From an uncultured Gammaproteobacteria bacterium (GTDB lineage Bacteria; Pseudomonadota; Gammaproteobacteria; PS1; Pseudothioglobaceae), in NCBI GenBank assembly GCA_902509905.1, contig CABWZI010000004.1, positions 1 through 64,000 of the forward strand: a stretch of 64,000 nt of DNA, given 5' to 3'. The notes beneath the pieces were generated by a model. The model was not told where the DNA came from. It saw nothing but the letters and a program-made list of their open reading frames with translations, and ran no database searches. The stretch's first letter is position 1; each line of letters starts with the position of its first letter. This document shows positions 55,096 to 64,000 of the stretch, piece after piece. Position numbers and translations under genes: made by a program.

Positions 55096-55102
55096 AGTTG
55101 TA

Positions 55103-55203
55103 TGGTGGGGCGTGAGCGATTCGAACGCTCGACCAGCGGATTAAAAGTCCGATGGCTTACACCACCCATCTCAACAAGTTGAGGATGGGTGCCCTACCAC
55201 ACC
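55103..55203 (-). tRNA. Lysine tRNA (TTT)-like, 3' half normal, 5' half aberrant; possible attachment-site remnant
   Basis: Read on the minus strand, the last 50 bases are a good tRNA: anticodon arm with loop CTTTTAA (anticodon TTT), variable loop, T-arm GAGCG-TTCGAAT-CGCTC, acceptor strand ACGCCCC, then ACCA with CCA encoded (55103-55105). The 5' side does not fit. The expected GGGGCGT acceptor partner is absent (GGTGTGG gives two mismatches) and the D-arm is replaced by a 12-bp hairpin at 55163-55191 (CACCCATC/GATGGGTG plus TCAA/TTGA). At 101 bases it is about 25 too long. It may be the displaced 3' end of a tRNA gene used for integration, a tRNA pseudogene, or a real tRNA with an odd D-arm. 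Confidence 0.6.
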
Positions 55204-55275
55204 TATTCTAACAACAATCTTAGGTTTTCATGCAATGAACTCATTATAGCAAAAAACCAGCTTTTCAAAGACAAT

Positions 55276-55340
55276 TGCACGATTAGTGCACGAAATTTGC
55301 ACGATTTTTTAAGGGGGTATGTATGCACCATGGGGGGTAT
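55276..55340. repeat. Phased TGCACGA repeats and paired GGGGGTAT repeats near the island edge
   Basis: TGCACGA occurs three times at 55276, 55287 and 55298, exactly 11 bp apart, so all copies face the same side of the helix. Two GGGGGTAT copies follow at 55313-55320 and 55333-55340, 20 bp apart. Such arrays are typical of binding sites for integrase arms, excisionases or repressors. They lie between the tRNA-like remnant and the first island gene. The rest of 55204-55461 shows no gene. Confidence 0.6.
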
Positions 55341-55461
55341 CTAGTATGTATTTATAACAGTCGCACTTTTTAGGAAAGAAATAACTGTTTACCAGTTTGT
55401 TTATTACTTCATGCATCAAACGAAATTTGGTCTCTAGTCCAAGTTGACATATAATTAGTGT

Positions 55462-57084
55462 ATGAAAAAACTACTCATACTTCTATTCTCTCTTCTGATT
55501 TCCTTTGCCTCTTATGGAGAGGAAGAAGAACTCGATTTCTCATTGGATACTTTTTGCGACCAATCACCTAAAGCACAAGTAAGAAATGGTCTTTTTTACC
55601 TTCCAAATCAAGAAGAGCCATACTCTGGTGAAAACCTTTGTGTTTATTTAAGTAATGGACAATATTATAGTAAGGGAGAAATAAAAGATGGACTTCGACA
55701 TGGTTCATGGAGTTATTGGAAAGAAAATGGTCAGAACTTGAGTGATAAATTGTTTTTTGAGGATGAGATTGTTAGTGAAACTGAATATGAATATTATGAA
55801 AATGGTCAGTTACAATATAAAACAACATTCCAGGATGGAGAAATAGTTGGTGTAGCGACAAGATGGTATGAAAATGGTCAAAAATCGCAAGAAGGTATTT
55901 GTTTGGGATGTATAAATTCAGAAATAAAGTCATGGTATGAAAATGGTCAGATTCAGATGGAGACATCCTATAAAGATGGTATGCCAGATGGGAAGTTTAC
56001 TTTGTGGTATGAAAATGGTCGGATGCAAGGTGTGGGATACCACAATAATCTACTTCCAGATGGAAATTGGATGACATGGTTTGAAAATGGTTTGCAGTCA
56101 GGTGAAGGAAATTTTAAAGATGGAACGGGTCAATTTATTGAGTTTTATGAAAATAATCAGAAATTACATGAAATGGTTTACCAAGATGGAATTGGAAAAG
56201 AGACTCGTTGGTATGATGATGGTCAGATATCCAGTGAAAAAAATTACAAAGACGGTAAGAATAATGGCAAATTCACTAAGTGGTATGAGAATGGTCAGCT
56301 CATGATAGAAGGAAACTATATAGACGATAAGAAGGAAGGCAAGTGGACTGAGTGGTATGAGAATGGTCAGATAGAGTTTGAGTTATTTTTTAAAAGTGGT
56401 GAAGTAATTAGTGAAAAAGCTAGAGAAGCTGAAATACTTGCACAAGAGGTTGCAAAACAAGTCAAGAAAGCTGAAGAGAAGCGAAAACTAGAAGAGCAAA
56501 AACTAGAAGAGCAAAAACTAGAAGAGCAAAAACGTAAGCCAGAAGAAGAAAAGGTAAAAGAAGCTGAAGAGAAACGAAAGCTTGAAGAAGAGAGAGCTAA
56601 ATTAGCTGAAAAAGAAAAAGATGAATCCAAGAGACTTACAGAGGAAGAGCGAATCAGATTAGATGAGTTAGAGGCTGAGAGAACAGCTCAGCAGTTAGCT
56701 TTAGAAAATGAACAATACCTTCGTTTATTGACTGAAGAAGTTCTATCTGAGCAAGCTGAAGAAGAGGAAAGAAAATTAAAAATTAAAAATCAACAAGAGG
56801 CTCTTAAGATTGCTTGGATTAATAATATTGCAGCAAGAATTTATACGCACTGGCGATATCAAGGTGCAGAGGATGATTGGACTGCAGAGGTCTATGTCCT
56901 TCAAGATAGGGATGGCACAGTATTGGCTGTAGATGTTCGAAAAGCAAATGTTGGTGATAGTGCTAAAGCAAAATCATTTAAAGACTCTATAAGAAGAGCG
57001 GTTTACAAAGCATCACCACTTCCATCTGCTCCTGATGAAGCAGTATTTGATAGTGAATTAATGATTACATTTAGTGTGAATTAA
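55462..57084 (+). CDS. Secreted YwqK/MORN-type repeat protein with coiled coil and TolA-like C-terminus
   Basis: A 540-residue protein of unusual architecture. A signal peptide (MKKLLILLFSLLISFASYG) is followed by about ten repeats of roughly 22-24 residues centred on WYENGQ (residues 60-310), the YwqK/MORN-like pattern. A long charged helix (about 318-445) includes three perfect 15-bp DNA repeats encoding LEEQK. The last 85 residues (IYTHWRYQG...PLPSAPDEAVFDSELMITF) match the C-terminal domain of TolA/TonB-type proteins. It lacks the N-terminal membrane anchor of TolA. Function unknown; an envelope-spanning or colicin/phage-receptor-like role is only a guess. A TATAAT at 55450-55455 lies so close that the mRNA may be almost leaderless. 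Confidence 0.85.
   Translation: MKKLLILLFSLLISFASYGEEEELDFSLDTFCDQSPKAQVRNGLFYLPNQEEPYSGENLCVYLSNGQYYSKGEIKDGLRHGSWSYWKENGQNLSDKLFFEDEIVSETEYEYYENGQLQYKTTFQDGEIVGVATRWYENGQKSQEGICLGCINSEIKSWYENGQIQMETSYKDGMPDGKFTLWYENGRMQGVGYHNNLLPDGNWMTWFENGLQSGEGNFKDGTGQFIEFYENNQKLHEMVYQDGIGKETRWYDDGQISSEKNYKDGKNNGKFTKWYENGQLMIEGNYIDDKKEGKWTEWYENGQIEFELFFKSGEVISEKAREAEILAQEVAKQVKKAEEKRKLEEQKLEEQKLEEQKRKPEEEKVKEAEEKRKLEEERAKLAEKEKDESKRLTEEERIRLDELEAERTAQQLALENEQYLRLLTEEVLSEQAEEEERKLKIKNQQEALKIAWINNIAARIYTHWRYQGAEDDWTAEVYVLQDRDGTVLAVDVRKANVGDSAKAKSFKDSIRRAVYKASPLPSAPDEAVFDSELMITFSVN
56488..56532 (+). repeat. Three perfect 15-bp tandem repeats inside the coiled-coil coding region
   Basis: CTAGAAGAGCAAAAA is repeated three times without change, in frame, encoding LEEQK units of the charged helix. 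Perfect identity at DNA level suggests recent slippage, and copy number may vary between strains. Confidence 0.9.
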
Positions 57085-57091
57085 TACATAT

Positions 57092-57448
57092 ATGGATATC
57101 TATAATTATCTTGAAGAAAACAAAGTAGTCTGTCCTTACCCTCAAGCTTGGCAAGCTATCTTTAATCAAATTATTAAAGAAGCTGGTTTTGAAGATAAAA
57201 AATTAAATTGGAAAGAATGGTCTGAATTGGGCATGCCAAATCCACTTGTTCTTAGTAGGTGGCTATCCAGTGATAATGAAAAGAAAGCAGTCTTTCATGC
57301 ACAAATTGAGTTTGCAAAAAAGCATGATGTTATTCATATTATTGAAAACTGGATAGATGAATACGATATGGATATATTCTTCACTGGAAACCATTTTGTA
57401 GAACCCGATACAAATCTTGTGGGAGATATCGGAGATTCATATAACTAA
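57092..57448 (+). CDS. Hypothetical protein, 118 residues
   Basis: I do not recognise this small acidic protein. It starts at an ATG 7 bp after the repeat protein, so the two are probably cotranscribed. It has no signal peptide or membrane helix, is rich in Trp, Asp and Glu, and looks like a mostly helical cytoplasmic protein. Its 3' end overlaps the next gene by about 30 bases. The pairing with an exported TolA-like neighbour is the only context clue. Confidence 0.6.
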   Translation: MDIYNYLEENKVVCPYPQAWQAIFNQIIKEAGFEDKKLNWKEWSELGMPNPLVLSRWLSSDNEKKAVFHAQIEFAKKHDVIHIIENWIDEYDMDIFFTGNHFVEPDTNLVGDIGDSYN

Positions 57449-58316
57449 ATACCTTCTTAATCACTGGCAAGGAGGTCATTCATTAGTAAAGGCTTTTTGG
57501 ATAAACAGCGTTCTTATCTTTGGCGTTTTTAACCTCTTACTTGAGCAAATTAGTACGCTCAACAATCCCGCAACAATCATTACCTATGCAAGAATCTATT
57601 TACTTTTAACTTTAGCCTTTTTTTTAGTTATCTTTCCATGGCAAATTATTGGTCTAGCAAGAACTTTAATAAGATATATCAAAAGTAAAAAACAGCTCGT
57701 AACTTCATTTTTAGTTATTGTTTTTCTTCTTTGGGAACTAACAATCCTATCTCTAATAATCGTTAAGTCTCCTCAAAAACTAATAGAGTCTGTGTATATC
57801 AGTTTCAGCTCCTATGAAACAGGTGGCTATAAGCTATCTGTTCAAGAGAATACTCTATTGTTAGATGGCAAGATTAGTTATGGTATTTCAAAGGATTTTG
57901 AACAAGTATTGGATGAGAATCCCCAAGTCAAAACTATTACATTTTTTAGCCAAGGTGGTCTTGAATATGAAGCGAGGAATATATCCTCAATCATTAAAGA
58001 AAGAGGACTGAATACTTATGTTCCTGAATACTGCGTGTCTGCCTGCACATCTGCTTTTCTTGGCGGCAAGAAAAGACAAATGTCCTCAAAGGCTTTACTT
58101 GGGTTTCACCAAGGAAAACCTTCCTTTAATAAAAGCAAATTCTCCGAAGAAGAGATAAAAGATAAACTCTATGACACCATTAAGTTTTATAAACAAAATG
58201 GAATAGATAAAGAGTTTGTTAAGAGGTTTTACAGAACTCCTCCAGAGGAGATGTGGTATCCCAGAGATGAAGAGTTATTAAAGCAAGGAATAGTGACTGA
58301 AATAATTGATGAATAA
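57417..58316 (+). CDS. Membrane-anchored ClpP-like (COG3904-type) protein
   Basis: A 299-residue protein with three hydrophobic segments (about 21-43, 55-85, 92-117) and a C-terminal domain of the ClpP/crotonase type. The second part has TFFSQGGLEYEA (oxyanion-type loop), YCVSACTSAFLGGKKRQ (Ser198 in the nucleophile position) and LLGFHQG (His221). These match the uncharacterised COG3904 periplasmic family. No ATG is available near the N-terminus: the frame opens at a TTG (57417) and a start a few codons later is possible. It may cleave membrane or periplasmic proteins, but activity is unproven. Confidence 0.75.
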   Translation: MWEISEIHITKYLLNHWQGGHSLVKAFWINSVLIFGVFNLLLEQISTLNNPATIITYARIYLLLTLAFFLVIFPWQIIGLARTLIRYIKSKKQLVTSFLVIVFLLWELTILSLIIVKSPQKLIESVYISFSSYETGGYKLSVQENTLLLDGKISYGISKDFEQVLDENPQVKTITFFSQGGLEYEARNISSIIKERGLNTYVPEYCVSACTSAFLGGKKRQMSSKALLGFHQGKPSFNKSKFSEEEIKDKLYDTIKFYKQNGIDKEFVKRFYRTPPEEMWYPRDEELLKQGIVTEIIDE

Positions 58317-58456
58317 ATTGAATGCGATAGTTCTACTGATAAATTACTAATATCTCTATTTTGCCTATATGAAGGCTTTTACAGGGCATTAACTAGAGAA
58401 TATTAAAGCTCACTAAAGTTACGAGTAATAGTAGGGAATTATCTTAGAGAGTCTCT

Positions 58457-59938
58457 TTACGGAAACCCTCGAGAAACCCGCCATTCATTTTCTCTTTGAT
58501 TATATTGTTTAAAGTTATTAATTCCTTCTTTAGTAATATTTATTAGTTCATTTCCTGTTATTGGCTCTCTTAAGCCTTTATAGTTTATTTGGTCTTTAAC
58601 TAAAGGTCTTTCTTGTTCTTGTTGTTCTAGTATTTTCCTTATCGATTCTTTTTTATCTGTTATTGCTTCTGTAGTTAAAACCTCTTCATAGGCTTTATTC
58701 ATTTCATCTTTTAAGTCGTTTATATGGCTCATTCTTACAATAAAACTATCATGCACTGGTAAGGCGACTATATTGTCTCTAGCAAGCCTTAAAATGACCT
58801 TTTCGGCTATTTGTGAGTCAAGGTATTGAAGCTCTATTCCGATGCCTGTAGCGAAGTATTTGGAAATCTTAGGATGCTTAAGTTCTAGCTGGTTAAAGAT
58901 ATCTTGAGCTGACTTATTCTTTGGAAGTGTTAGCTCACTATTAATGGAGTAAATAGCTTCTTTCTTGGTTTTCGCATTGATGATTGTATTCAATGCAACT
59001 TTTACTTGGTCTCTGTATTTTCTTCCAAATCCTTCTATTAGGTATGTATCTTCAGAGCCAATCTCTATATCTTCGAACGCATAGAGCATTCTGATATGAA
59101 TCCCTGAGAAGTCTTCTTCCTCAACTCGTTTACCGCTTATGGTTATATATTTTCTATAGGCACTTGGTATTTCTTGCCACCATCCATGATAGAAGCGTCC
59201 ACCATTCTCAAAGCTAGAGTTATTGAATATGCGTCTTAGCTTTCTTCTGGTGAAGTCAATCGGGTTTTTATCTGGCTTCTTATCCAATGCTTTATTAAGC
59301 TTGGTGTGTTCTTTATCCGATATTTCTATATCTAACCAAGTTCTATCTAATAGAGCATTTATTTCTTCCAGATTGCTCCTCATTTTATTTGTAGTAGGAT
59401 TATCTATATAGTCGACTAAATCCTTTCTATTCGGGTTTATAGACTCGTCTTTGGACTTCTTTAGGATGATTGTTTCTTCGTCTTTATCGTTAGTAATCAT
59501 TGCAGTTGAAATACTATAAGATTTGAAGCATTTAATGAGCTTGGTATTGGCTCGTACTCTAGAGCGATTGCCTGATGCAGTTATCGGGTCATAATGACCG
59601 GGGTGGTATTCAATATATTTAAGTTTTGTTATTACATTGAAAATCTTAATAAAGACTCTATAGCCTATGTTTCTAGTGTTATATCTTTTATTTGAGTACT
59701 CTCCCGAAGTCCTTGAAACTGCGAGATACATCTTTGGGCTTACCGAATAGGTTACGAACAGATTGAGAAGCAATACTTTGAGATTACTTTTGTATTTAGT
59801 TTTATTGAATCGCTTCAAATGAAGCTCTGATTGAATCTCCTCAAGCAACTTAGAGACTAGGTTATCTATCTCTTCGAACTCAGACCAAAGGCTATCTTTA
59901 AAGGGTTTGGAGTGTTTTAGTTTTGAAGCTTTATCCAT
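58457..59938 (-). CDS. Family-A polymerase-like protein, function unknown
   Basis: A 493-residue protein with the palm motifs of the DNA polymerase A / T7 RNA polymerase superfamily in the right order. Motif A is EEDFSGIHIRMLYA (Asp276), motif B is RDQVK (Arg309, Lys313) and motif C is VHDSF (His396, Asp397). FENGGRFYHGWWQEIPSAYRKYI precedes motif A. No exonuclease domain is present, and the aromatic residue expected after the motif B lysine is not conserved. I know similar proteins only as hypotheticals near mobile elements. It could synthesise DNA or RNA for a mobile element or be a non-catalytic relative. It is the last gene of the minus-strand island operon. Confidence 0.7.
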   Translation of the reverse strand: MDKASKLKHSKPFKDSLWSEFEEIDNLVSKLLEEIQSELHLKRFNKTKYKSNLKVLLLNLFVTYSVSPKMYLAVSRTSGEYSNKRYNTRNIGYRVFIKIFNVITKLKYIEYHPGHYDPITASGNRSRVRANTKLIKCFKSYSISTAMITNDKDEETIILKKSKDESINPNRKDLVDYIDNPTTNKMRSNLEEINALLDRTWLDIEISDKEHTKLNKALDKKPDKNPIDFTRRKLRRIFNNSSFENGGRFYHGWWQEIPSAYRKYITISGKRVEEEDFSGIHIRMLYAFEDIEIGSEDTYLIEGFGRKYRDQVKVALNTIINAKTKKEAIYSINSELTLPKNKSAQDIFNQLELKHPKISKYFATGIGIELQYLDSQIAEKVILRLARDNIVALPVHDSFIVRMSHINDLKDEMNKAYEEVLTTEAITDKKESIRKILEQQEQERPLVKDQINYKGLREPITGNELINITKEGINNFKQYNQRENEWRVSRGFP

Positions 59939-59968
59939 TAATTAGAATATAAAAGCGAACAATCTTGT

Positions 59969-60427
59969 CTAAAAGATTTCACATCTAGCTAAGATTGCAA
60001 TTACATAATCACCATTATTTTTACTGTAACTAAAGTGCCCACCACCATCATTCTCATTCTCTCTATCTGTATAAAGCATGTCATGAGCATGACCATCATT
60101 AGCCCAAAAGACTTCAAAGTCAGACTCAGAGTCATTGGGGTTGGCAAGATATTCTTCAACAAATAATTCTAGTAGTTGAACCTTTTCCCATGCATCTATT
60201 CTTTTAAGATAGTTTGAAGGGTTAAAAGCCACTATTAACTGACTCGAGTCCCATATATCCTTAGTCAATTTGAATGAAAAATTCTCAAGCTCTCGGTTAT
60301 ATACTCGATTGTCATCCAAAAAAATATTTTGTGTCATCTTGCAATTATATAAATCACCAATACCTGCTATGCTATGACTTGATATCATAAATAAGAATAG
60401 AAGTATTGATAGTTTTTTCATAAGCAT
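59969..60427 (-). CDS. Hypothetical secreted protein, 152 residues
   Basis: A Sec signal peptide (MLMKKLSILLFLFMISSHSIAG) is followed by a mature domain of about 130 residues with two cysteines and a C-terminal HFSYSKNNGDYVIAILARCEIF. The start abuts the stop of the repeat-protein gene upstream. No family recognised. Likely a periplasmic partner of the repeat proteins in this operon. Confidence 0.7.
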   Translation of the reverse strand: MLMKKLSILLFLFMISSHSIAGIGDLYNCKMTQNIFLDDNRVYNRELENFSFKLTKDIWDSSQLIVAFNPSNYLKRIDAWEKVQLLELFVEEYLANPNDSESDFEVFWANDGHAHDMLYTDRENENDGGGHFSYSKNNGDYVIAILARCEIF

Positions 60428-61012
60428 TTACTCATCACTCAACTTTCCAATTGTTGTAATTTTCCAATTTTGTAATTCTCCCATCTTATAGTATCGCTCT
60501 TCCATTATTTGACCATTCTCATTCCACTCAGTCCATTTACCTTCAGCTCTATTTGTTCGGTAGCATCTTTCTAATTTCTTCTGCCCGTTCTCAAACCACT
60601 CAGTAAACATACCATCTGCGATAGCTTTAGACATGCCCGGCAATCCGCCATCCTTATAATTTCTTACATATTTTTTATTGCCATTCTCATACCAAGAAGT
60701 CCATTTCCCAATGACTCTTCCACATTCATAATTTTGTTCTCTTTTCTTATGACCATTCTCATACCACTCAGTCCACTTTCCATGTTTACTATCCCTAGCT
60801 GGAAATACATACCGACTACTTCGCTCCCATCTTTCATCATTAGGGAGTACTTCATAAGGCTTAAAGTTTCCCTTTAACTTGACTTGACCATTCTCATACC
60901 AATAAGTCCATTTACCCTCTAACATTCCGTCGTTGTAACTCTCCTCTGACAATTGCTTTCCATTATCAAAGTATCTTTTATATACACCGTTTTTACGGAC
61001 TCGTTTAGTCAT
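60428..61012 (-). CDS. YwqK/MORN-type repeat protein, cytoplasmic
   Basis: A 194-residue protein made of six repeats with the core WYENGQ (YFDNGK, YWYENGQ, EWYENGH, SWYENGN, EWFENGQ, EWNENGQ). No signal peptide. Similar repeat proteins are labelled YwqK-family antitoxins, but that name says little about function in a Gram-negative cell. It overlaps the upstream gene by 4 bases. Confidence 0.8.
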   Translation of the reverse strand: MTKRVRKNGVYKRYFDNGKQLSEESYNDGMLEGKWTYWYENGQVKLKGNFKPYEVLPNDERWERSSRYVFPARDSKHGKWTEWYENGHKKREQNYECGRVIGKWTSWYENGNKKYVRNYKDGGLPGMSKAIADGMFTEWFENGQKKLERCYRTNRAEGKWTEWNENGQIMEERYYKMGELQNWKITTIGKLSDE

Positions 61013-61632
61013 AATGAACTTCTAAAATAGTTCCAAATTCTCTGAAAAATTGATGTGTTTTTATATACTTTAACTTCTATATGCCTTTCTCTTGCTATTT
61101 TCCGCTCGGCATGTTCTTTTGCTCTTTTTTGTTTATATTCTTTTTTGAGAGCCTTCATTCTTCTACTATCTTCCTGTTGTTGCTTCATTAGAGCATCATG
61201 CCTTGAAATGTTTATTGCTTTTTGATGAACAACTTCTCCGAAATCTTCATAAGTATCACAACCACTATGAGTTTTAGAGCCTGTTGGCGCATAGGGGTTT
61301 TTCCCTCGATTGGCAAAGCCAAACTCATAGAGCTCTTTGGTTTCATCATAATCTGAATCAGAGTCTAATCTTTCCTCTATATTCCGAAGCACCCAAGCAG
61401 TGTTGGTAGCAGAGCCAACAAACCACTCAAAATGCTTTTCACATAGAACTATGCCTTTGTAGAGAAGTTTGAGGTCATCAAGGGAACAATCATCACAATT
61501 CTCGGGATAGCGAGCCCTTTGCCATTGCCCCTCTCTTAGATAACTGAACTCTGAATCAGGTATGGTTGGAATAATCTCTGTACGACCAATTTCGATGAGC
61601 TGCTTGATTAAATCGTCGTAGAATTTTTCCAT
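61009..61632 (-). CDS. Hypothetical protein with a probable zinc site
   Basis: A 207-residue protein. Cys46-x2-Cys49 (CDDC) and Cys64-x2-His67 (CEKH) look like a treble-clef or zinc-ribbon site. The C-terminal 55 residues are strongly basic and helical (KKEYKQKRAKEHAERK), suited to nucleic acid or membrane surface binding. No family recognised. It overlaps the next gene (repeat protein) by 4 bases. Confidence 0.65.
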   Translation of the reverse strand: MEKFYDDLIKQLIEIGRTEIIPTIPDSEFSYLREGQWQRARYPENCDDCSLDDLKLLYKGIVLCEKHFEWFVGSATNTAWVLRNIEERLDSDSDYDETKELYEFGFANRGKNPYAPTGSKTHSGCDTYEDFGEVVHQKAINISRHDALMKQQQEDSRRMKALKKEYKQKRAKEHAERKIARERHIEVKVYKNTSIFQRIWNYFRSSL

Positions 61633-61658
61633 TTACCCCTTGCCACACTGATACATAA

Positions 61659-62006
61659 TTAATAATCCCACCACATATTATTAAGGTTCTGTTGATTAAT
61701 GTTTCTTTGATAGTTGCCACCTGAATTGATGTTATTCCACATCTGTGAAGATTGAATAGACATAATCGCAGCATTCTGCTCATCCATCTTCCAAGCGATT
61801 ACTTCGTGGTCAGTCATAGCATCCTGTTCATAGGTAAAGTTCCCATTACCATCGAAACATTTAATTCGTTTAGGTGAAATGACTTGATAACTTTGACACG
61901 CAGCACCACCAATATCCTTATAGAAATAACCATCATCTAACATTTGGTTGGTAGCACAACCAATTAAGCTAAAAGAGATTAATAATAGTAGGAGTAGTTT
62001 TTTCAT
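61659..62006 (-). CDS. Small lipoprotein, 115 residues
   Basis: A lipoprotein signal (MKKLLLLLLISFSLIGCATNQ) has a LIGC lipobox with acylation at Cys17. The mature part is hydrophilic, rich in Asn and Gln near the C-terminus. No family recognised. The second mature residue is Ala, so outer-membrane sorting is expected under the usual +2 rule. Confidence 0.8.
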   Translation of the reverse strand: MKKLLLLLLISFSLIGCATNQMLDDGYFYKDIGGAACQSYQVISPKRIKCFDGNGNFTYEQDAMTDHEVIAWKMDEQNAAIMSIQSSQMWNNINSGGNYQRNINQQNLNNMWWDY

Positions 62007-62047
62007 AATAAATCAGAGAAACTGGTTAAAGTATGTAATTTAAAAAT

Positions 62048-62677
62048 TCAGCTTTGAGGGTGCGATGCAATGTAGGCTTCAAAATCACTTTTCGTATTAA
62101 AGGTAATGCCATCTATTGAATATTTTTTTTCTTTAATATGATATGAGCTGTCTTCGCCTTTATGACTTGATGAATAATTTTTTTCATCGATTTCAGTCTC
62201 AGCGGCTTCTATTGCCTCCTTTATTCTTTTATCTAAAGCTTCCTTGTCCTCAGGACTCGATTTTTCAGCAGCTTTTTTTAGTTCACCTGTGTAAATTTCA
62301 AAGTCCTTTTTTGACCTAAATTTAATACCATTAATTGCGTATTTGGATAGTTTCTTTTCCTTTGCAGCTTTGCTTTTATTGGCTTTAACAGTTGTTGCTT
62401 CAATTTTTTTAGACTCTTGAAGTGCTTCATATGCTTTAGCGCTCTCTCTTTCATTTATCTGCTGAGTTTCTATATCATCCATAATAGATTGAACTCTAAG
62501 CTTGAGATAAATACCGTCAGCTTTTTCTTTATCTCCCTCTGCTTTTGATAAAGCTTTTGCGTACAATCCTTTGCGGATTTCACCACTTTCCACTTCTTCA
62601 AGGGCAGCCTCATAAAGCTTTTCCTCATAGAGTCTTGATTTAATTGTAGTCTTTTTGACTTTGTCGAACATTCCCAT
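62048..62677 (-). CDS. Hypothetical helical protein with a duplicated 19-residue motif
   Basis: A 209-residue cytoplasmic protein. The N-terminal half is helical (LYAKALSKAEGDKEKADGIYLKLRVQSI, a pattern I recall from unrelated hypothetical proteins). The motif KYAINGIKFRSKKDFEIYT at 112-130 recurs as KYSIDGITFNTKSDFEAYI at 185-203, so the C-terminal half holds two copies of a small module separated by a charged linker. Function unknown. Confidence 0.65.
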   Translation of the reverse strand: MGMFDKVKKTTIKSRLYEEKLYEAALEEVESGEIRKGLYAKALSKAEGDKEKADGIYLKLRVQSIMDDIETQQINERESAKAYEALQESKKIEATTVKANKSKAAKEKKLSKYAINGIKFRSKKDFEIYTGELKKAAEKSSPEDKEALDKRIKEAIEAAETEIDEKNYSSSHKGEDSSYHIKEKKYSIDGITFNTKSDFEAYIASHPQS

Positions 62678-62684
62678 AAGCTAA

Positions 62685-63077
62685 TTATATTTGAACATTG
62701 TTTTTTATAGCTTTAGTTTTTACTACTAATCCATTCTCAAAGGTTAGATGCATTTCAGTTTCATATCTTGTAATATCCCAGCTAGAGCCTTGAATCTTGT
62801 CTCCAGTCGCAACCTGTCCAACACCTGTAATCCAATCAGCTAGAATTGGGAGATTAACTAGAACGTCATACATACCGCTGGAAAAATCAATAAGATAAAG
62901 CTTATCATCTTTAATTTCCCAAGTTCCTACATATCCACGCCAGCAATTAGATGATTTTTCAATAAACCCTTTTCTTTTTATTTGTATTATTGATTCATCC
63001 TCAGGCAATGACAGAGAATTTATTAAGGGATATCTTTCACCTTCAATAATGATTCGTTCTTGAACTTGAGTTGTCAT
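62685..63077 (-). CDS. Hypothetical beta-rich protein, 130 residues
   Basis: No signal peptide or membrane helix. Alternating hydrophobic strands (GYVGTWEIKDDKLYLIDF, ITRYETEMHLTFENGLVV) suggest a small beta domain. Its start overlaps the zinc-ribbon gene stop by one base. No family recognised. Confidence 0.6.
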   Translation of the reverse strand: MTTQVQERIIIEGERYPLINSLSLPEDESIIQIKRKGFIEKSSNCWRGYVGTWEIKDDKLYLIDFSSGMYDVLVNLPILADWITGVGQVATGDKIQGSSWDITRYETEMHLTFENGLVVKTKAIKNNVQI

Positions 63078-63355
63078 TAGTTAACTCCAGTTCTAAAGAG
63101 ACTTGTATTTTCATTGTCACTAGAGTTATGAAGCTTTTTCAATGGCTTGCCACCAAATGATTTTTTACATTTTTTACAATATTCAGTTGCTTCAGAAATT
63201 TTACATCCACCCCAAGCATACTCTCCTTGTTTACCCCTCTCTATCCTTGCTTCCTTAGACATAAGCCCATAGACAAATGGTATTAATGAATAAGAATTAC
63301 ACGCAGGGCATTTGATATTAGAATTTTTCAATATCTCTTCTTTATCATTAATCAT
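63077..63355 (-). CDS. Small zinc-ribbon protein
   Basis: A 92-residue protein with CPAC at 16-19 and CKKC at 60-63 as a zinc-ribbon pair; Cys51 is a further candidate ligand. Rubredoxin-like knuckles of this kind occur in many small island proteins. It overlaps the membrane-protein gene by 4 bases and the next gene by 1. Confidence 0.65.
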   Translation of the reverse strand: MINDKEEILKNSNIKCPACNSYSLIPFVYGLMSKEARIERGKQGEYAWGGCKISEATEYCKKCKKSFGGKPLKKLHNSSDNENTSLFRTGVN

Positions 63356-63756
63356 CTAGAATTAAGGACAAGCATTGATATGTTCCATATCGCTACAAAG
63401 AAAATATAATAACCAATTGGCAGAAGAATACAGGCAGTAATATAATGAAAACCTATGAATTTCTTAGAATAAAAGCCCATAATTAGCCCTCCCCATTTAC
63501 CAATAAACACAAGAGCAAAAAAGGTAAGAACACCAGCAATTAATCCTGAAAATAAGAAAACATATATTGATGCGAGAAATAAACTAGGAATACCAGCAAG
63601 AATAAACCATTCTGAAGATGGATGTTCAAAGACAAGAGGCAAGTCAAATTCATCGGTTATTTTGAACATTTTGACAGCCTTCATTACATAATAACAATAA
63701 CCCATCATTATTGAAAAAGGTATTAAACTTCCCCCGTAATAAAACCATTCTTTCAT
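63352..63756 (-). CDS. Hypothetical integral membrane protein, 134 residues
   Basis: Four hydrophobic segments (about 7-28, 50-70, 72-93, 103-128) make a compact membrane protein. It is first in the minus-strand island operon, about 100 bp from the divergent repeat-protein gene. No family recognised. Confidence 0.65.
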   Translation of the reverse strand: MKEWFYYGGSLIPFSIMMGYCYYVMKAVKMFKITDEFDLPLVFEHPSSEWFILAGIPSLFLASIYVFLFSGLIAGVLTFFALVFIGKWGGLIMGFYSKKFIGFHYITACILLPIGYYIFFVAIWNISMLVLNSR

Positions 63757-63856
63757 TCTATTAATTAACTGATTGAGTAATCTTTAATTGTAGAGCAAAA
63801 TGAATTCAATATTTATATCTTTGGTACAATTTATCTAAACGTATTTAACTTCCAAA

Positions 63857-64000
63857 ATGAGCATTTCAAAAAAAAATTCAAAGCTTAAGCTAATTACTAG
63901 ATATCATCCGAATGGTCAGAAGCATTTTGAGGGCTATTATGATGAGTCAGAACCAGTAGGCGACCATAAAGCTTGGTATGAAAATGGTAATATAGAGCAT
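63857..64000 (+). CDS. YwqK/MORN-type repeat protein (3' part outside window)
   Basis: The first 48 residues are visible from the ATG at 63857. YHPNGQKHFEGYYDESEP and WYENGNIEH show the same repeat type as the two other repeat proteins in the island. No signal peptide. Divergent from the membrane-protein gene. The gene runs off the window edge. Confidence 0.75.
   Translation, partial: MSISKKNSKLKLITRYHPNGQKHFEGYYDESEPVGDHKAWYENGNIEH

Follow-up and report, generated by a model that had tools for sequence, protein, structure and literature searches.

A predicted A-family polymerase, homologous to phage divPolA2, in a tRNA-Lys island of a Pseudothioglobaceae bacterium

Divergent polymerases without a nuclease domain have been described under separate names. 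The divPolA2 proteins are additional polymerases of Caudoviricetes phages, up to three per genome, which lie in variable neighbourhoods and have an N-terminal domain of unknown kind; the phages with divPolA2 homologues already encode a replicative polymerase, and repair or transcription have been proposed as possible roles (Yutin et al., 2024; PMC11348598). TV-Pol, a predicted primase-polymerase with a bihelical thumb module, was described with four features, and the neighbours listed for it include integrase, resolvase, transposase and restriction genes, and also a D5-like helicase (Iyer, Abhiman & Aravind, 2008; PMC2579912). No experimental test of this kind of protein was found in the literature. 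Among other element-borne enzymes, the CcPol-MP and PolA-SSB primases have an A-family core linked to recombinases (PMC7581432; PMC10061031). CcPol-MP has primase activity and prefers dNTPs (PMC7581432), and it works with an OB-fold ssDNA-binding partner and a helicase. Pipolins are integrative elements with a tyrosine recombinase and their own polymerase, piPolB (PMC7385651), and in small marine satellites, the PICMI, the integrase is accompanied by a primase that replication requires (PMC10803314).

The polymerase gene described here, P0001, is the last in a tightly spaced minus-strand run of genes (63756-58457) within the window, the whole stretch of 64,000 nt that was analysed (Table 1). 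It is not an undescribed kind, being homologous to phage divPolA2 and, judging from motifs and neighbourhood, probably to TV-Pol. New here are the exact borders of the island, the likely winged-helix N-terminus, the coupled His/Asn pair, the association with integrases and the fixed-locus copies.

Table 1. Features of the island and of the polymerase gene P0001. Positions are those of the window unless marked as contig positions.
Feature	Position	Strand	Remarks
Island part inside the window	55099..64000		Rest reaches 68738 of the contig
Left border: displaced 3′ half of tRNA-Lys	55099..55154	-	Forms a perfect 56-bp direct repeat with contig 68683-68738
MORN_2 repeat protein with TonB C-terminal domain, cargo	55462..57084	+	Pfam
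Polymerase gene P0001, 493 aa	58457..59938	-	Intact, ATG to stop
Motif C, residues 393-401, H396-D397-S398	58736..58762	-	Profile alignment and conservation
Motif B, residues 309-321, R309-x3-K313	58976..59014	-	N321 where Pol I has Y766
Motif A, residues 274-286, catalytic D276	59081..59119	-	H281 where Pol I has E710
Hairpin motif GRFYHGWWQEIPSAYR, residues 247-262	59153..59200	-	Aligned to Pol I GRLSS..PNLQNIP..R (hhalign)
N-terminal domain, likely winged-helix-like, about residues 22-140	59519..59875	-	Separate AlphaFold2 model and Foldseek
152-aa protein next upstream of the polymerase, same run	59969..60427	-	Apparent signal peptide (by eye); no Pfam match
MORN_2 repeat protein, same run as the polymerase	60428..61012	-	Pfam
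209-aa protein	62048..62677	-	Related proteins adjoin polymerase genes in L031 and L033 and also occur in polymerase-free island L178
Tyrosine integrase, just outside the window	contig 67582-68592	-	Adjoins tRNA-Lys(ttt)
tRNA-Lys(ttt)	contig 68687-68762	-	Island insertion site

P0001 matched no family in Pfam or NCBIfam and no PADLOC model of anti-phage defence, and a search of the PDB with its sequence alone gave nothing meaningful. Its only match was PHROG 4756 (E=1.1e-57), a phage protein family without an assigned function. This PHROG independently retrieves a Pol I gene (G488, E=2.4e-5), at the same place where PF00476 scores E=1.5e-155. The host assembly is 1.52 Mb, and the searched genomes of its order are all from one family. 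P0001 was dropped as a candidate for the host's own Pol I, which is a separate, intact gene.

The motif residues of family-A polymerases are present in P0001 as R262, D276, D297/Y299, R309-x3-K313 and H396-D397. The original prediction had placed D276, R309, K313 and H396-D397 at these same positions, and had noted that the aromatic residue after the motif B lysine is missing (K+4 is N317 and K+8, the Pol I Y766 position, is N321) and that there is no exonuclease or primase domain, for neither of which was there a Pfam match; all of this holds. In a profile-profile alignment of the family with Pol I the four motifs are collinear: DFSGIHIRML of P0001 aligns with the motif A DYSQIELRIM, R309-x3-K313 falls on the motif B RxxxK, and HDS falls on HDE. 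The single local profile-profile matches to Pol I are weak (P=0.008 and 0.037; reversed-profile control P=0.26), and what counts in this alignment is the order of the motifs rather than any one local match. Outside the motifs, confidence in the full-length MAC alignment with Pol I is low, and it was used at the motifs only.

Conservation was counted in 62 aligned relatives, 51 of which are outside one side branch of 11. R248, R262, D276 and Y299 are invariant in these 51 rows (D276, 51/51). All 49 rows that have a residue at the D397 position keep the Asp, K313 is conserved in 49/50 and R309 in 48/49, and H396 is present in nearly all. The catalytic Asp residues are lost in G063 and G070, both in the side branch. 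An AlphaFold2 model of P0001, built from ten sequences, has a pLDDT of 75.8, and its 50 best Foldseek matches in the PDB are all A-family DNA polymerases and single-subunit (mitochondrial) RNA polymerases. Because the query TM-scores are about 0.2-0.34 (best E=5e-4), these matches support the fold class, not its detail. Among viral proteins, Foldseek matched uncharacterised ones of phages and a Barba-phage 'DNA polymerase', with E down to 3.5e-22. Helices 181-199 and 208-219 lie before the hairpin in the model and are candidate thumb helices. P0001 almost certainly belongs to the A-family polymerase fold. The divergent minimal A-family polymerase without a nuclease domain that had been proposed is supported by fold and motifs and withstood both of the refuting checks set for it, with a palm/fingers model and with catalytic Asp residues that are kept among homologues apart from the two side-branch copies. 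A chance ORF was dropped as a candidate, given the 62 members of the family and the fold class.

The family profile retrieves the divPolA2 representative AUR84708, itself absent from the profile, at E=9.6e-45, and a Barba19A protein was found by tblastn (E=9e-6). Like divPolA2, P0001 has intact palm motifs, an extra N-terminal domain and no 3′ exonuclease; it differs in being island-borne rather than phage-borne, and has an H/N sugar pair and HDS in motif C, whereas AUR84708 has E/Y and FDE. With TV-Pol it shares the hairpin Arg (R262), the two Asp residues (D276 and D397), the fingers Asp (D297) and the RxxxK (R309/K313), and with the N-domain subset of TV-Pol also the lack of a nuclease, the extra N-terminal domain, and integrase, resolvase, transposase and restriction neighbours. 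Unlike TV-Pol, P0001 is in an island without a D5-like helicase, and its N-domain models as a winged helix, not as all-helical. Most likely, TV-Pol with the N-domain, divPolA2 and P0001 would be one family, to which TV-Pol is joined by inference from motifs and neighbourhood, not from aligned sequences. P0001 would in this way connect two groups of polymerases that were named independently, the TV-Pol proteins from mobile elements and divPolA2 from phages, the latter with a homologue in ICP1.

This homologue is ORF100 of Vibrio cholerae phage ICP1 (L049 4020-5687), annotated as a conserved hypothetical protein, for which no functional study was found in the literature. Microcystis phage Ma-LMM01 is said to hold TV-Pol; a search of its genome outside 100001-112109 gave only the weak candidate MAP_030 (E=0.16), which lies beside transposase genes (L104 22746-24266). 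Two divergent polymerase homologues lie within one element (L071 3087-4397 and 7816-8835), and several Vibrio and Aeromonas phage records have two or three match places per genome, as reported for divPolA2. A scan of the genome contigs with P0001 alone gave one relative; the full-family alignment was too divergent for the viral-contig scan, and narrower scans yielded few loci.

P0001 shares with Pol I and the T7-like RNA polymerases the palm/fingers fold and motifs A, B and C, but has neither exonuclease nor promoter-binding parts, and differs at the positions of E710 and Y766. Among the relatives the E710 position is mostly His and the Y766 position mostly Asn, and the two are coupled, Asn accompanying His in 27/30 His rows versus 4/20 other rows (Fisher p=7e-7, shared descent ignored). 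P0001 has this pair, as H281 and N321. It also has N317 at the F762 position, and so does not have the Pol I-type ribose gate (E710, F762) that is kept in CcPol. As the pair is His/Asn here, Glu/Tyr in AUR84708 and E710/F762 in CcPol, the choice between dNTPs and NTPs is unreadable from sequence. T7 RNA polymerase has Gly at the gate position. The coupled change at the two sugar-choice residues of Pol I provides a testable handle.

A second such handle is the N-terminal domain. For residues 15-200 modelled alone with AlphaFold2 (pLDDT 77.7), most Foldseek matches are winged helices of the MarR, PadR, Fur and similar types, all of them weak (best E=0.019), and the family profile also touches a PadR-like protein (E=0.03). 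As these two weak, independent hints agree, the N-terminal domain is likely, not proven, to be a winged helix.

The island is 13.6 kb, is inserted in tRNA-Lys and extends past the window. Its repeat is the 3′ half of tRNA-Lys plus a few bases, and its GC content is 0.344 versus 0.39-0.40. In the relative G020, genes for HU and a TPR-methyltransferase flank an uninterrupted tRNA-Lys, which is the empty site. The repeat, the integrase and the empty site confirm the mobile island of the original prediction, with the integrase and the right border just beyond the window. Five MORN_2 proteins are encoded in the island (the two in Table 1, and contig 63857-64402, 66419-66883 and 66902-67555), and relatives of these recur in sister islands. 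The 83-aa protein at contig 65293-65544 consists of little beyond a sigma-70 region 4 domain (Pfam E=1.8e-18) and is possibly a regulator. The 19 other island proteins gave no helicase or SSB match in Pfam, which MP-type proteins escape. The ssDNA-binding partner and helicase of CcPol were not seen here, and no initiator, nuclease, ligase or recombination protein was recognised beside the polymerase in the island. There were no plasmid relatives of the first 5 kb of the island at the DNA level, and literature searches on elements of the host group found nothing relevant.

The tRNA-Lys site is an integration hot spot. In G008 it holds a sister island of about 15.9 kb (L178 279-16215) with 59-bp repeats, a 90% identical integrase, a cytosine methyltransferase and likely, judging from the neighbour of this gene, a restriction enzyme. 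In G021 the sister island is about 5.7 kb (L179 10515-16232), with 57-bp repeats, outer-membrane-like proteins as cargo and a 79% identical integrase that appears in two frames. Neither of these islands has the polymerase, which is therefore optional in this type of element.

Across 21 genomes (about 97 Mb), in which PF00589 integrases were counted 174 times, at least 14 of the 22 polymerase loci have an integrase no more than 8 kb away, versus 0.63 expected, and many of the integrases near a polymerase adjoin a tRNA gene. The 122 neighbours of homologues include nine integrases, seven resolvases, three transposase cores and several restriction-modification families. It had been suggested that homologues be checked for integrases or defence genes in their context. 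The integrases are indeed in excess; the defence genes are less telling, because restriction-modification neighbours beside integrases, resolvases and transposases are to be expected as mobile-element cargo. A compact case is in G027 (L033 7939-14837), a 6.8-kb element bounded by 60-bp tRNA-His repeats, with an integrase and the polymerase as its recognisable core and a few other genes. In the single-contig genome G041, pieces of a broken integrase and polymerase lie near tRNA-Pro/Arg/His (L042 8294-10510) and are a decayed element of the same kind. The G027 element is similar in size to the PICMI satellites, which the P0001 island resembles as a small integrative island with an integrase and a replication enzyme. 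PICMI, however, have AlpA, an unrelated type of primase and a fis site, and no helper phage is known for the P0001 island.

In a tree of the 62 rows, P0001 groups with copies of other bacteria (support 90/79, moderate), and the 11 copies of the host's own family form one clade (100/100) with P0001 outside. Because of this grouping, P0001 is best read as a putative horizontal acquisition. Within the own-family clade, four genomes of two genera share one polymerase locus, with DDS instead of HDS in motif C (L036 9204-10475, L038 9741-11012, L039 9298-10569 and L040 4786-6057). The genes at this locus, named by eye, are radical SAM-like, polymerase, aminotransferase, uvrB-like and queE-like; in G080 the first is cut and farther away. 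Another locus is shared by G070 and G063, with NNS or NGS in motif C (L034 2965-4239 and L037 9349-10626) and, in L037, Glu in place of the motif A Asp. No integrase is present at the loci of the fixed copies L034 and L036-L040. For own-family-clade pairs with usable estimates dN/dS is 0.08-0.17; synonymous sites are near saturation in distant pairs, and 0.10-0.15 holds for close pairs. The fixed-locus copies are thus under purifying selection, and have likely been domesticated and are likely in part non-catalytic. Together with the complete enzymes of the elements they make up a natural series, at whose other end stand chromosomal copies with changed active sites, and which is useful for the study of polymerase recruitment to new roles.

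With confidence just short of even, P0001 is tentatively read as an element-borne A-family DNA polymerase that serves the element's own replication and probably primes itself. It would be a minimal polymerase that has a palm, fingers, helices where a thumb would be and a winged-helix-like N-terminus, but lacks a nuclease. The winged helix would most likely bring it to particular DNA, the palm would, judging from motifs and fold, copy DNA with D276 and D397 holding two metal ions, and strands would probably be started primer-free, as by the distant relative CcPol-MP. This reading draws on the fold class, the Pol I-collinear motifs, the kept catalytic residues, the island with its att repeat, integrase and empty site, the integrase association, the compact G027 element, the AUR84708 match and the winged-helix hints. 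It is rated as it is because CcPol-MP primes DNA and because small marine satellites have a primase alongside their integrase, and no higher because sister islands without the polymerase, and phages that already have one, leave room for other roles. These same sister islands speak against an indispensable role; also against the reading are the lack of a recognised helicase or initiator, the one clade in which copies have changed or lost catalytic residues yet stay conserved, and the distance of CcPol, with its E710/F762 that P0001 lacks. The optional polymerase among islands with nearly the same integrase, its place as a second polymerase in phages with variable neighbourhoods and the repair role proposed by Yutin et al. 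would suit an accessory DNA polymerase, which fills gaps or takes part in recombination or repair of element or phage DNA from a host-supplied primer. This is unlikely, since the nuclease, ligase or recombination protein that might accompany it was not recognised beside it in this island. The defence role raised in the original prediction is also improbable. On such a reading the polymerase would be cargo against phages or competing elements, and invading DNA would be its template or its trigger for nucleic acid synthesis, in the manner of reverse-transcriptase defence. The methyltransferase and likely restriction enzyme in the polymerase's place in the sister island, and the restriction-modification genes that often adjoin homologues, would suit it, but PADLOC has no match, no partner gene with which it could make up a system was seen to be conserved, phages themselves commonly carry homologues, and the neighbours fit mobile-element cargo in general.

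Decidedly unlikely is that P0001 is a single-subunit RNA polymerase for the transcription of genes of the element or of phages, in which the winged helix would read promoters. This possibility, also raised by Yutin et al. (PMC11348598), would agree with the mitochondrial RNA polymerases among the top Foldseek matches, the HDS of motif C, which is that of T7 RNA polymerase, and the loss of the ribose gate Glu of Pol I; however, the scores of A-family DNA polymerases are just as good, the gate His is bulky compared with the Gly of T7 RNA polymerase, and the characterised relative CcPol prefers dNTPs. A non-catalytic DNA-binding regulator derived from a polymerase is very unlikely for P0001, whose catalytic residues are all intact and which falls, with moderate support, among element copies of other bacteria, although the own-family fixed-locus copies, with altered or lost catalytic residues yet a dN/dS of about 0.1, point in that direction.

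Beyond the replication reading for P0001 itself, there may be a widespread class of Pseudomonadota tRNA elements that replicate with a self-priming, winged-helix-steered A-family polymerase with a His/Asn site, which phages use as a second polymerase, some bacteria have domesticated and some copies of which are non-catalytic; in this full form the proposal is rather doubtful. If true, such elements would be to family A what pipolins are to family B, and the sugar-selection site of their polymerase would have been rebuilt; the likeness is the integrative element with a tyrosine recombinase and its own polymerase, and the difference is that the polymerase of pipolins is of family B. In the single-contig genome G041, pieces of a broken integrase and polymerase lie near tRNA-Pro/Arg/His (L042 8294-10510) and are a decayed element of the same kind.
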